NCBI GenBank assembly: GCA_015075625.1
Contig: JABTTZ010000001.1
Span: 1,178,001-1,242,000 of the forward strand
DNA: 64,000 nucleotides
Direction of reading: 5' to 3'
Source: Anaerolineales bacterium
GTDB lineage: Bacteria; Chloroflexota; Anaerolineae; Aggregatilineales; UBA2796
Both the position numbers and the translations under genes were made by a program. Below are positions 39,238-43,373 of the stretch, in pieces; the first letter of the stretch is position 1; every line of letters starts with the position of its first letter. A model generated the notes under the pieces. The model was not told the DNA's origin and did no database searches. It saw only the letters and a program-made list of their open reading frames with translations.

Positions 39238-41550
39238 ATGGCATTGGACTACCTTAATTTTGACCTTCGTTTGGATGATCATCCCCTCGGCGGTTATACG
39301 GTTGCGGTGGTCAATTCCCCCGCTGGTGAAACATCTGGCACATTTGATCTCCAATTTCCCGATCTTGAAAACCTCCTTCTGCGCCTTGAAAATGCGGTGA
39401 TAAAGGGGTCACAACGGGGCGGCGCACGACGGCGACTTTACTCTCCAGAAGAAAAGACCGTGCAAGATTTTGGTCATCAGTTGTTTCAGACATTGTTTCC
39501 CGCCGATATACGAAGTCTCTATGATCAATCGCGTATCCTTGCCCAGAACGAGAGTAAGGGACTTCGCCTTCGCCTGCGGATCAATTCCCCCAAACTGAGC
39601 GCCATGCCATGGGAATTTCTTTACGATCCGCGTGGGGCGGGACGGTACCTGAGTCTTTTCAACGATACACCCCTTATCCGCTATTTAGAAACACCTTACC
39701 CCGTTACCCCTCTCACCATTCCAGCCGGTGAGCCATTACGCATTTTAGGGATGATTGCCGCCCCAACGGATCAAGAGGCATTGGATGTAGACGGGGAACG
39801 CGCCCATATTGAGGACGCCTTATCTGATGTATCGAATGTTGCTCTCACATGGGTCTCTGGGGGGACTGTTCGAGCCCTGACTAACGCCCTTGATGCGGGG
39901 CAATGGCATATCTTTCATTTCATTGGGCATGGGTTGCTCAATACCCGAACAAAGGAGGGCATGATTGCCCTTTGCAACACGCAAGGAAAAACCCATCCGT
40001 TCAGTGCCAGCCAATTGGCAACATTACTTGCGGATCACCAACCCTTGCGCTTTGCCTATTTGAATTCTTGCGAAGGGGCAAAAAGTGACAGTGCTGATTT
40101 GTATTCCAGCACCGCCTCTATTCTTGTGGGGAGCGGTTTGGCGGCAGTGTTGGCAATGCAGTATGAAATTTTTGATGAGGGCGCCAAATGCTTTGCCAAA
40201 CGCTTCTACGAGGCGTTGGCAAACGGCGATCCTGTGGATCAAGCGGCAACTAAGGGGCGTAAGGCAATACGGAGCGAGGCGGGCAGCATCATGGAATGGG
40301 GGACGCCCGTCTTGACGATGCGCAGCCCCGACGGGGTGTTGTTCACGGTGCGTCCCGCCCAGAAACCCGCCCCCTCCCCGCTTGCGGGGAGGGATGAAGA
40401 CCCCGTCGCGTTGTTCAATGAGGCAAGCGCCTGTGTAGAGGGCGAGCGCTACAGCGAGGCAACTGCCCTCTACGAACGGCTTTTGGGGTGGGCACCTCCC
40501 TTCCGTGAGCGGCAGGTACGCGCCCTCTTGAAGCAGGCGGAAGAACTTCTTGCCGAACAAGAGAAGGCACGCGCTGCGCAGAAACGGCTGGAAGAAGCAG
40601 AAGAACGTTTTTCGGACTTGGAAACCTTCGTCCAGCTTGCCCGAACAGAGAGCGCCAAAGCGCACGCCCGCGAGGAGATTCAGCAGTTCTTAGCGGATTA
40701 CCCCGAATACAAGACCGATGCCAACGTCTTGGCGCTGTGGGAGAGGGTGAAACCGCCCCCACCGCCGAAACCCCCCGAACCCGCCCTGGGCACGCGGATG
40801 ACCGACGAGAAAGGGGTAATCATGGTCTACGTCCCGCCGGGGACGTTCCAAATGGGGAGCAGCAATGATGCTGACGAGCGGCCGATCCATTCGGTGACCA
40901 TTGAACGGGGCTTCTGGCTTGACCTGACGCCGGTGACAAACGCCTCCTATGCCCAATTCATCAAGGACGGCGGCTACAAAACGGAAACATACTGGACGCC
41001 CGGCGGCTGGGCATGGCGGAAAACGGCGGACAAGACCGCACCGAGGGACTACGACGACTTCACCGCTCCCCAGCAGCCCCGCGTGGGGGTGACATGGTTC
41101 GAGGCATACGCCTACTGCCAATGGCGGGAAGGTCGCTTGCCCACCGAGGCGGAATGGGAATGGGCAGCGCGGGGAGAAAGGAGTCTCGTTTACCCTTGGG
41201 GAAATGACTTCAAGCGCGATAGCAGCGTGGTGATCTATGGTGAGAATTCTGGCAGAAAAAGCCACCCTGTGGGGGAGGGGATACGGGTGGCGGGGGCGTC
41301 ATGGGTGGGGGCGTTGGACATGAGCGGGAATGTGTGGGAGTGGATAAGCAGCCTCTACACCCCATACCCTTACGACGGCAATGACGGGCGCGAGGCGGAC
41401 ACCGGAGACCGCACGGATGTTCTGCGCGTGCTGCGGGGCGGGTCTTGGGGCGACAGTCAGGACAACGTTCGCGCTGCGAATCGGTTCAGGGTCGACCCTG
41501 CCAACCAGTTCAACCGTTGGGGGTTCCGTCTTGCCCGCTCTTACAGATAG
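39238..41550 (+). CDS. CHAT caspase-like protease fused to an FGE/C-type-lectin-fold domain; candidate DGR target protein
   Basis: A 770-residue protein. Residues ~1-375 form a CHAT peptidase with the catalytic dyad His231 (HFIGHG) and Cys278 (YLNSCEGA) and the characteristic WGTPVLTMRSPDG end. Residues ~390-520 are TPR/coiled-coil-like (ALFNEASACVEGERYSEATALYERLL), with a Pro-rich hinge (PPPPPKPPEP). Residues 529-770 are a formylglycine-generating-enzyme/sulfatase-modifying fold (VPPGTFQMGSS, GRLPTEAEWEWAARG, MSGNVWEW, VLRGGSW...GFRLARSYR). No sulfatase gene is nearby. The C-terminus has the layout of DGR variable proteins. It is probably a hypervariable sensor controlling a protease; that role is inference. 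Confidence 0.88.
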   Translation: MALDYLNFDLRLDDHPLGGYTVAVVNSPAGETSGTFDLQFPDLENLLLRLENAVIKGSQRGGARRRLYSPEEKTVQDFGHQLFQTLFPADIRSLYDQSRILAQNESKGLRLRLRINSPKLSAMPWEFLYDPRGAGRYLSLFNDTPLIRYLETPYPVTPLTIPAGEPLRILGMIAAPTDQEALDVDGERAHIEDALSDVSNVALTWVSGGTVRALTNALDAGQWHIFHFIGHGLLNTRTKEGMIALCNTQGKTHPFSASQLATLLADHQPLRFAYLNSCEGAKSDSADLYSSTASILVGSGLAAVLAMQYEIFDEGAKCFAKRFYEALANGDPVDQAATKGRKAIRSEAGSIMEWGTPVLTMRSPDGVLFTVRPAQKPAPSPLAGRDEDPVALFNEASACVEGERYSEATALYERLLGWAPPFRERQVRALLKQAEELLAEQEKARAAQKRLEEAEERFSDLETFVQLARTESAKAHAREEIQQFLADYPEYKTDANVLALWERVKPPPPPKPPEPALGTRMTDEKGVIMVYVPPGTFQMGSSNDADERPIHSVTIERGFWLDLTPVTNASYAQFIKDGGYKTETYWTPGGWAWRKTADKTAPRDYDDFTAPQQPRVGVTWFEAYAYCQWREGRLPTEAEWEWAARGERSLVYPWGNDFKRDSSVVIYGENSGRKSHPVGEGIRVAGASWVGALDMSGNVWEWISSLYTPYPYDGNDGREADTGDRTDVLRVLRGGSWGDSQDNVRAANRFRVDPANQFNRWGFRLARSYR
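41431..41550 (+). other. Candidate DGR variable region (VR) at the 3' end of the CHAT-FGE gene
   Basis: Codons 732-770 (LRGGSW to the stop). Sites that are Asn-rich in DGR template-encoded versions of this fold read GGC, GAC, AGT, GAC after SW and TTC, AGG, GTC, GAC and TTC, AAC, CGT further on. Most end in C, as AAC codons would after mutation of their adenines. The framework (NVRAANR, WGFRLA) is conserved. The matching template repeat is not in the window. Confidence 0.65.
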
Positions 41551-41607: not shown

Positions 41608-41626
41608 TCGGGGGCGAAGCCCCCGA
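41608..41626 (+). promoter_or_regulatory. DGR-like hairpin/cruciform downstream of the variable region
   Basis: TCGGGGGC (41608-41615), loop GAA, GCCCCCGA (41619-41626) form a perfect 8-bp GC-rich stem 57 bp after the target-gene stop. In characterised DGRs a short hairpin of about this size with a small purine-rich loop lies downstream of the VR and promotes retrohoming. The stretch 41551-41600 before it is a degenerate TTCTGATT repeat. Confidence 0.6.
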
Positions 41627-41664: not shown

Positions 41665-41879
41665 ATGAAAACCTACACAAATTTGTATCCGCGTATGCTG
41701 AATTTCAACGCCATACTCCGGGCGTGGCGCAAGGCACGGCGGGGCAAACGGTACACCCATGCCGCTGTCGAATTTGAACAAAATCTGGATAGCGAATTGA
41801 TCGCCCTCAATCGGGGGTGCAGGGGAGGTTAGACGCAGGCGAATGGTTATTAGCAGATTGTGTGAGGAATTCCGGCTAA
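41665..41879 (+). pseudogene. 5' remnant of a DGR-type reverse transcriptase
   Basis: ATG 41665 opens a 55-codon frame reading MKTYTNLYPRMLNFNAILRA, then WRKARRGKRY and FEQNLDSELIALNR, and stopping at 41830-41832. This matches the N-terminus of reverse transcriptases of the DGR / group-II-like type. A frameshift near 41825 restores RLDAGEWLLADC, resembling the next conserved step (usually L-x-x-G-x-Y), before a stop at 41877-41879. None of the catalytic RT motifs (for example YxDD) survives. The gene is cut to about one sixth. Confidence 0.7.
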
Positions 41880-41951: not shown

Positions 41952-43373
41952 ATGTCCCCTATTGGCACATCAGAATCCCCCCTGCGGGTAGCGATCATCG
42001 GGTCGGGACCCTCTGGGTTCTACGCCGCCGAACATCTTTTCAAACAGACAGATCGCATCATTGAGGTGGACATGTATGATCGCCTCCCCACCCCTTATGG
42101 TTTGGTGCGCGGTGGGGTTGCCCCTGATCACGACAAGATCAAGACGGTGACGAAAGTCTACGAAAAAATTGCCGCCAACCCCCATTTTCGCTTCTATGGA
42201 AACGTTGAATTCGGGCGCGACCTGACCCATGCCGAGGTGAGCGCTCACTACCACGCCGTGATCTACGCCGTTGGCGCACAGACAGACCGCGCGATGGGCA
42301 TCCCAGGCGAAGACCTCCCCGGCAGCTACGCCGCGACGGAATTCGTTGGCTGGTATAACGCCCATCCCGATTTCAGGGATCACACGTTTGATTTTAGCGC
42401 CACCGCCGTCGCCGTTGTGGGGAATGGGAATGTAGCGATGGATGTGGCGCGTATCCTTGCCAGTGGCGAGGGCGAACTGCGCGGCACGGATATTGCTGAT
42501 TATGCGCTAGAGGCGCTCTGCAACAGCCGCGTCACCGATATTTACCTGCTTGGGCGGCGCGGACCCGCACAGGCGGCGTTCACTCACCCAGAGTTGAAAG
42601 AATTTGGCGAGCTTGCCGAAGCCGATGTGATCGTCGCCCCCTCTGAGGCGGCGTTAGACCCGCTCAGCGCTGACGACCTCAAACGAACGCCGAATACCCT
42701 TGCCGAGAAAAATCTCGCCCTGCTCAAAACGTTCAGCGTTCGCCCGCCTTATGGGAAACCGAAACGCATCCACATGCGCTTTTTGGTCTCCCCGCTGGAA
42801 CTTCGCGGGAATGGCAAGGTTGAGGAGATCGTTTTGGTGAAGAATGTCCTTACTGCCGCGCCGGATGGATCGCTCCGCCCGAAGGCGACGGAAATCACCG
42901 AGACGCTCAAAGTTGGGATGGTCTTTCGTTCCATCGGCTATAAGGGAGTCCCTCTGCCCGATGTGCCGTTTGACGCCAAAGCCGCTGTGATTCCCAACAA
43001 AGCGGGGCGCGTCATCGATCCGGCAACGGGTGCGGTGCGGCGCGGTGACTATGTGGTGGGGTGGATCAAACGGGGTCCCTCCGGCGTGATTGGGACGAAT
43101 AAGCCGGATTCAGTCGAAACGGTGAACTGCCTCTTGGAAGACCTTGCCAGCCTTTCGCCGCTCTCGCCGCCGACTTCGGGAGCTACCCACCGCGAGGCAG
43201 TGGAGGCGCTTTTGGCGGCGCGTCAGGTTGCTTACGTCACCTTTGAGGATTGGCAACTGCTTGACCAAGCAGAAGTGGCAAACGGGGCAGCAATGGGGCG
43301 TCCTCGCTTGAAATACGCTCGCATCCCCGATATGTTGGCGGCGATCCGTGAACGCAAAGCAAAGCGTGCCTAG
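41952..43373 (+). CDS. Ferredoxin/adrenodoxin-NADP+ reductase (FprA-like)
   Basis: A 473-residue FAD flavoprotein. The N-terminal FAD Rossmann motif is VAIIGSGPSGFYAAEHL and the diagnostic PYGLVRGGVAPDH follows. The NADP(H) motif VVGNGNVAMDVAR and the C-terminal YVVGWIKRGPSGVIGTNK complete the adrenodoxin-reductase/FprA signature. It transfers electrons between NADPH and ferredoxin in the cytoplasm. A possible -10 box (TATAAT, 41887-41892) precedes it without a clear -35. It is followed 21 bp later by the GT39-like gene. Confidence 0.92.
   Translation: MSPIGTSESPLRVAIIGSGPSGFYAAEHLFKQTDRIIEVDMYDRLPTPYGLVRGGVAPDHDKIKTVTKVYEKIAANPHFRFYGNVEFGRDLTHAEVSAHYHAVIYAVGAQTDRAMGIPGEDLPGSYAATEFVGWYNAHPDFRDHTFDFSATAVAVVGNGNVAMDVARILASGEGELRGTDIADYALEALCNSRVTDIYLLGRRGPAQAAFTHPELKEFGELAEADVIVAPSEAALDPLSADDLKRTPNTLAEKNLALLKTFSVRPPYGKPKRIHMRFLVSPLELRGNGKVEEIVLVKNVLTAAPDGSLRPKATEITETLKVGMVFRSIGYKGVPLPDVPFDAKAAVIPNKAGRVIDPATGAVRRGDYVVGWIKRGPSGVIGTNKPDSVETVNCLLEDLASLSPLSPPTSGATHREAVEALLAARQVAYVTFEDWQLLDQAEVANGAAMGRPRLKYARIPDMLAAIRERKAKRA

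Follow-up and report, generated by a model that had tools for sequence, protein, structure and literature searches.

Remains of a dismantled diversity-generating retroelement in an Anaerolineales genome, with its probable template attached to a paralogous target gene

The reverse transcriptase (RT) fragment and the gene in front of it in the window, the 64,000-nucleotide stretch of an Anaerolineales bacterium genome analysed here, very probably represent the left half of a diversity-generating retroelement (DGR) that is now dead, its RT and template (TR) having been deleted and its cognate TR being kept on another contig, C3, in a paralogous target gene. In DGRs, an error-prone RT introduces changes at adenines as it copies TR RNA, and the variable repeat (VR) of the target gene is then exchanged for the cDNA at an IMH marked by a hairpin (PMC3240598; PMC10907252). 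The original prediction held that such a cassette had been deleted here with its target gene left in front, and the RT stub, the adjoining target and the loss of the remainder support this.

The in-frame N-terminal part of the stub, approximately 49 residues encoded at 41665-41811 on the forward strand, is homologous to full RTs. Profile and sequence comparison traced its continuation in a shifted frame through 41812-41846 (forward strand), where recognisable RT ends with LDAGEW, read in the third frame at 41829-41846. This frameshifted continuation had been predicted and is present, but it runs to about 41846 and not to 41879, the sequence from 41875 onward being the promoter region of the neighbouring gene. 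The open reading frame at 41665-41832 encodes 55 amino acids, the same sequence that the original prediction had quoted. Pfam and NCBIfam searches of the stub returned no match because 55 residues are too short, and a phmmer search against the PDB gave a weak match to the BPP-1 RT alone (E = 0.16). Scanning 84,980 species genomes revealed 20 confirmed relatives of the 55-residue stub (36-62% identity, E down to 2e-16), mostly from Anaerolineae/Chloroflexi, the best of which are 56-62% identical across 47-50 residues; a scan of viral contigs found no stub relative. At most of the relative loci with enough sequence, the stub corresponds to the N-terminus of an RT of approximately 350 residues or longer that carries (Y/F)xDD, and GNxTSQ is common to the ten relative RTs that were aligned. 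A DGR RT profile built from these ten RTs (model length 357) matches the BPP-1 DGR RT structure (8ub7) with an E value of 1e-72, group II RTs following far behind at 6.5e-36, and in the family genomes it recovered the window locus (E = 8e-16), where the match covers model positions 1-64 and contains two in-frame stops. The 41665-41811 frame is confirmed by this homology as the start of a DGR RT, as had been predicted: the proposed search of the 55-residue frame did find RT similarity, and the nearest full-length relatives lie in complete target-VR-RT-TR cassettes.

Past 41846, no RT similarity was found. The RT at the window locus keeps only codons 1 to approximately 60, roughly the first sixth, so that the catalytic motifs are missing as anticipated, together with the whole catalytic domain; the YxDD RT is not intact, and what is missing after LDAGEW amounts to about 290 RT codons plus the TR. 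A sequencing or assembly error that truncated an intact RT would fit the one frameshift present, but the loss of approximately 290 codons and the TR, with the neighbour's promoter in their place, is beyond a base error and makes this explanation extremely unlikely. It is also very unlikely that the 55-residue frame encodes a functional small protein, such as an RT-binding or Avd-binding fragment. Although 49 residues are still in frame and a locus in another genome (G090) likewise retains an RT start behind a target, ten family genomes hold no orthologue of the frame, the two stubs stop at different places, and the homology continues out of frame and with stops, as decay predicts. Nor is the frame conserved as a stand-alone gene, being absent from the family relatives and elsewhere the start of a full RT.

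The deletion junction zone, placed by promoter comparison and lack of RT similarity, spans 41847-41874, with RT homology to its left and the conserved promoter GCTAATCCGCCGTATAAT of the gene at 41952 to its right. In a same-genus genome, GCTAATCTGTCTTATAAT stands at the matching place upstream of the orthologous gene, and the likeness to the promoter region of this orthologue begins at 41875 (GCTAATC.G.C.TATAAT). The gene itself (41952-43373, forward strand) encodes an NAD(P)-dependent, ferredoxin-NADP reductase-like oxidoreductase; it lies outside the DGR and is conserved in relatives, being present in 11/11 family genomes, and the relatives examined have neither target gene nor RT in front of it. 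Homology beyond 41847 was also considered as a TR flank and was rejected by sequence comparison.

Four complete DGRs whose RTs are among those closest to the stub (L005, L007, L008 and L012) served as reference. In each, the VR lies at the 3′ end of an upstream target, 91-121 bp separate it from the RT behind it, and 346-376 bp lie between the RT and the TR that follows. Mismatches between VR and TR fall at TR adenines in 19/19, 14/16, 18/18 and 18/18 cases, respectively. All four share an IMH/IMH* pair in which the VR ends in ...CGCTC and the TR in ...CGACC, and between VR and RT they carry a hairpin that is GC-rich, has a GAA loop in most cases and occupies the same position as in the window.

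The gene in front of the stub (39238-41550, forward strand) is intact and encodes a 770-residue CHAT-FGE target (variable) protein (Pfam CHAT, E = 7e-25; FGE-sulfatase, E = 2e-54) that retains the CHAT residues FIGH (228) and NSCE (276). Its VR occupies 41424-41540 on the forward strand and consists of a 5′ constant block (41424-41448), a variable part (41449-41518) and then a 3′ constant block with the IMH; comparison with the four complete DGRs identified the latter as VR-type, ...GCCCGCTC, at 41531-41540. A GC-rich hairpin of 8 bp with a GAA loop, TCGGGGGC-GAA-GCCCCCGA, follows at 41608-41626 on the forward strand (folded as DNA, z = -2.2) and is presumed to be the target-recognition hairpin or cruciform of DGRs; it occurs in exactly two copies in the genome, the other being on contig C2 at 809 kb, where it follows a kinase-FGE gene's VR. 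VR and RT are 130 bp apart, and the order of VR, IMH (CGCTC), hairpin and RT start up to the stub is that of the complete relatives.

The window gene shares a 1,150-bp C-terminal module, 95% identical, with a paralogue on C3, the CHAT parts being different. Outside the VR, the paralogues differ at 38 of 1,053 positions (3.6%), and 9 of these 38 are C3 adenines. Within 41449-41535, all 16 differences (16/16) fall at C3 adenines, of which the C3 copy has 31 among the 87 positions (hypergeometric P = 2.5e-9, for limits chosen after seeing the differences, with no further difference between 41424 and 41537). Judged by this signature, the 39238-41550 gene is a genuine former DGR target. An RT of the DGR clade, a VR that differs from a TR-type copy at adenines only, and an IMH with a downstream hairpin all place the locus among DGRs by ancestry; the intact YxDD RT and the stand-alone TR beside an RT that mark a functional DGR are both lacking. 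Proteins that combine a CHAT protease with a variable FGE fold have been proposed as antigen sensors in multicellular bacteria, and a sensor role would be conceivable for the CHAT-FGE protein described here. Since the target frame and FIGH/NSCE are intact, the protein may remain active, with a single fixed specificity.

The C3 paralogue is one of 17 FGE matches in the genome (C3:378798-379514, within a CHAT-FGE gene). After its variable part, it carries not the VR-type end but IMH* (CGACCTTGC, CCCGACCTTGCA), behind which follows a TR 3′ flank, GTAAGAGTGCCGGCTGTTCCCGCCC...GGGCAAATA. Over approximately 100 bp, this 3′ side (GTAAGAGTGCCGGC, TTCCCGCCC, GGGCAAATA) can be aligned with what follows the TR in the four complete DGRs, and no alignment was found with their VR flanks. 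The frame is open through the TR-type end and encodes an FGE end, NNNQDN...NNNRGF. We therefore read the C3 copy as a target::TR fusion because its end, IMH* plus approximately 100 bp of TR 3′ flank, is of TR type: the C3 gene is a target whose end was replaced in frame by the cognate TR, and not a VR. That it is instead an ordinary, never-mutated target without any TR fusion would agree with its being in frame and encoding an FGE end, but is unlikely given the TR-type 3′ side, which matches none of the VR flanks, and the lack of the hairpin at C3 in a whole-genome search that located both copies elsewhere; a naive C3 target was dropped as a candidate once the 3′ flank aligned with TR flanks. 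The fusion joins the target 5′ of the VR to the TR and its flank, with no RT between, and the join falls inside, or immediately upstream of, a 24-bp block shared by VR and TR, CGCGTGCTGCGGGGCGGGTCTTGG, which matches window positions 41425-41448. The C3 fusion is most simply read as the scar of a homologous VR × TR recombination that deleted the RT. It is the sole TR found, a search of window and genome having returned no stand-alone TR. An orphan target beside an RT stub, as originally proposed, is therefore supported, with a cognate template surviving on C3, beyond the view of that proposal.

A complete DGR elsewhere in the genome, which the original prediction had suggested looking for, was sought by profile and not found: in the five-contig assembly (C1, C2 and C3 among them; 98.5% complete), Pfam and the DGR-specific profile detected no DGR RT beyond the window stub and a scrap on C2. 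Pfam RVT_1 matched two intact RTs, one at C3:394 kb (L001), for which the best PADLOC model is a type XIII retron RT, and one of 1,000 residues at C1:340727-343729 (L002), which matches the UG35 DRT model (E = 1e-195); judged from these models, the RTs at C3:394 kb and C1:342 kb are not DGR RTs. The retron-type RT lies approximately 15 kb from the target::TR fusion. The scrap at C2:738,648-738,875 (L081:8652-8870) comprises 76 C-terminal residues of a DGR RT with stops, and no target or TR was found near it. It was considered as the missing half of the window RT and rejected, being only 37-48% identical to the stub's lineage; its identity to most members of a second DGR RT lineage, in which the TR lies between target and RT (two members checked), is 67-72%, and by this likeness it is a trace of another lost DGR. 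The kinase-FGE gene at C2:809144-809860 (L046) is a further orphan target, with a diversified-looking VR, an IMH of VR type and the hairpin flank that the window target also has; its VR and the C3 TR disagree at several non-adenines, which suggests either a slightly different TR or drift. A DGR-specific flank common to the RT scrap at C2:738 kb and the target at C2:809 kb was also considered and rejected, the shared approximately 105 bp being a repeat. This dispersed repeat (L081:8905-9010) occurs at at least 40 places in the genome with 90-99% identity, none of them in the window, and carries TTGACA-N17-TATACT, possibly as a mobile promoter-like element. The genome thus used to carry at least two DGR lineages, of which none appears to be working today.

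The original prediction had left the target either frozen or served in trans by a remote RT. Because no DGR RT was found in the genome, the target is most likely frozen and its diversification stopped, the completeness of 98.5% in five contigs leaving some residual doubt about that absence. A DGR RT located elsewhere, in an unassembled part, on a plasmid or in a co-resident strain, could use the C3 or another TR to diversify the target in trans. The window target retains the IMH and hairpin, a related genome (G037) has an RT-less target-avd-TR unit together with a complete DGR on another contig, and trans-diversification is suggested for Thiohalocapsa (PMC10907252); with neither a DGR RT in the assembly by Pfam and DGR-specific profile nor an independent TR, however, we consider ongoing diversification in trans quite improbable. 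The G037 unit (L192:4475-5360, G037:C35), composed of a target with VR, an avd-like open reading frame and a TR, is a candidate trans-served unit.

The frozen state would have arisen as follows. The ancestral element would have been ordered as in the nearest complete relatives, with a CHAT-FGE target carrying VR and IMH followed by hairpin, RT and TR, and while live it would have diversified the C-terminal FGE (C-type-lectin-like) fold of the target by adenine mutagenesis. A frameshift, and a deletion that began near RT codon 60 and stopped immediately short of the neighbour's promoter, would then have removed the remaining RT and the TR, leaving the intact window target with a fixed, already mutated VR. 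On C3, homologous recombination between VR and TR, which could remove the RT because the two are direct repeats that flank it, would have looped the RT out and left the TR as an in-frame 3′ end. Diversification would have ended for want of a DGR RT in the genome.

Among 154 genomes of the order, a second fusion was found in a different family (G082; L191:3739-5560, G082:C44), where a TIR-FGE gene has a mutated variable part followed by IMH* and the TR 3′ flank; there is no RT near it and no full DGR RT among the matches of this genome. Its N-terminal domain is unrelated to that of the window and C3 targets, and it is joined at the 3′ constant block, compared with the 5′ shared block on C3. That the two joins fall at different VR/TR-identical blocks is better explained by recombination than by chance fusion, although no rule can be drawn from two cases. 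Elsewhere in the order, a decayed DGR in G090 (L153:5454-5968, or L004) has a mutated VR, behind which only residues 2-92 of an RT are left, an RT-start remnant independent of the window stub.

An RT stub by itself would be ordinary decay. Truncated RTs, orphan targets and loss of RT or TR are already known, but we found no description of TR-captured targets, and the literature searched, with subscription titles mostly outside its scope, held no account of VR × TR recombination or of TR fusion to or capture by a target. Repeated loss and horizontal gain have been posed as two possible reasons for the patchy distribution of DGRs (PMC3521204). The genome described here presents a dismantled cassette, with a mutated target and RT stub at one place and the template joined to a paralogous target at another, and template-ended targets offer a sequence signature for counting dead DGRs in RT-less genomes, by which the route of loss becomes testable. 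Tentatively, and as something possible rather than probable, a DGR may carry its own exit, VR × TR recombination deleting the RT and fixing the target permanently with a TR-derived end. If this were general, TR-ended targets would be countable scars of past DGRs, and the loss of hypermutation would be a regular, directed lock-in step rather than random decay.

The RT family (bRT, 8ub7) and the VR with IMH and then a GC-rich hairpin are shared with the BPP-1 DGR, from which the window locus differs in its GAA loop instead of a GRNA tetraloop, in being cellular rather than phage-borne and in being non-functional (PMC3240598). The DiGReF survey recorded DGR RT genes that a frameshift, a nonsense mutation or a transposon had disrupted, whereas the window locus has physically lost the TR and most of the RT and keeps approximately the first 60 codons beside the target (PMC3521204). 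In Thiohalocapsa PB-PSB1, according to the available part of PMC10907252, DGR loci were degraded by MITE-like arrays, with RT or TR lost at some; CHAT, TIR and kinase targets with C-type-lectin ends and duplicated C-terminal modules on different N-terminal domains are common to both cases, as is the loss of RT or TR, whereas other complete DGRs remain there and none here, and the capture of the TR by a target gene seen here is not described in that part. Treponema denticola isolates similarly contain orphan DGR targets in genomes lacking both RT and TR, with VRs that differ from a known TR mostly at adenines (PMC4891356); no TR is left in those genomes, whereas the present one keeps an RT stub beside its target and, as the end of a paralogous target, the cognate TR.
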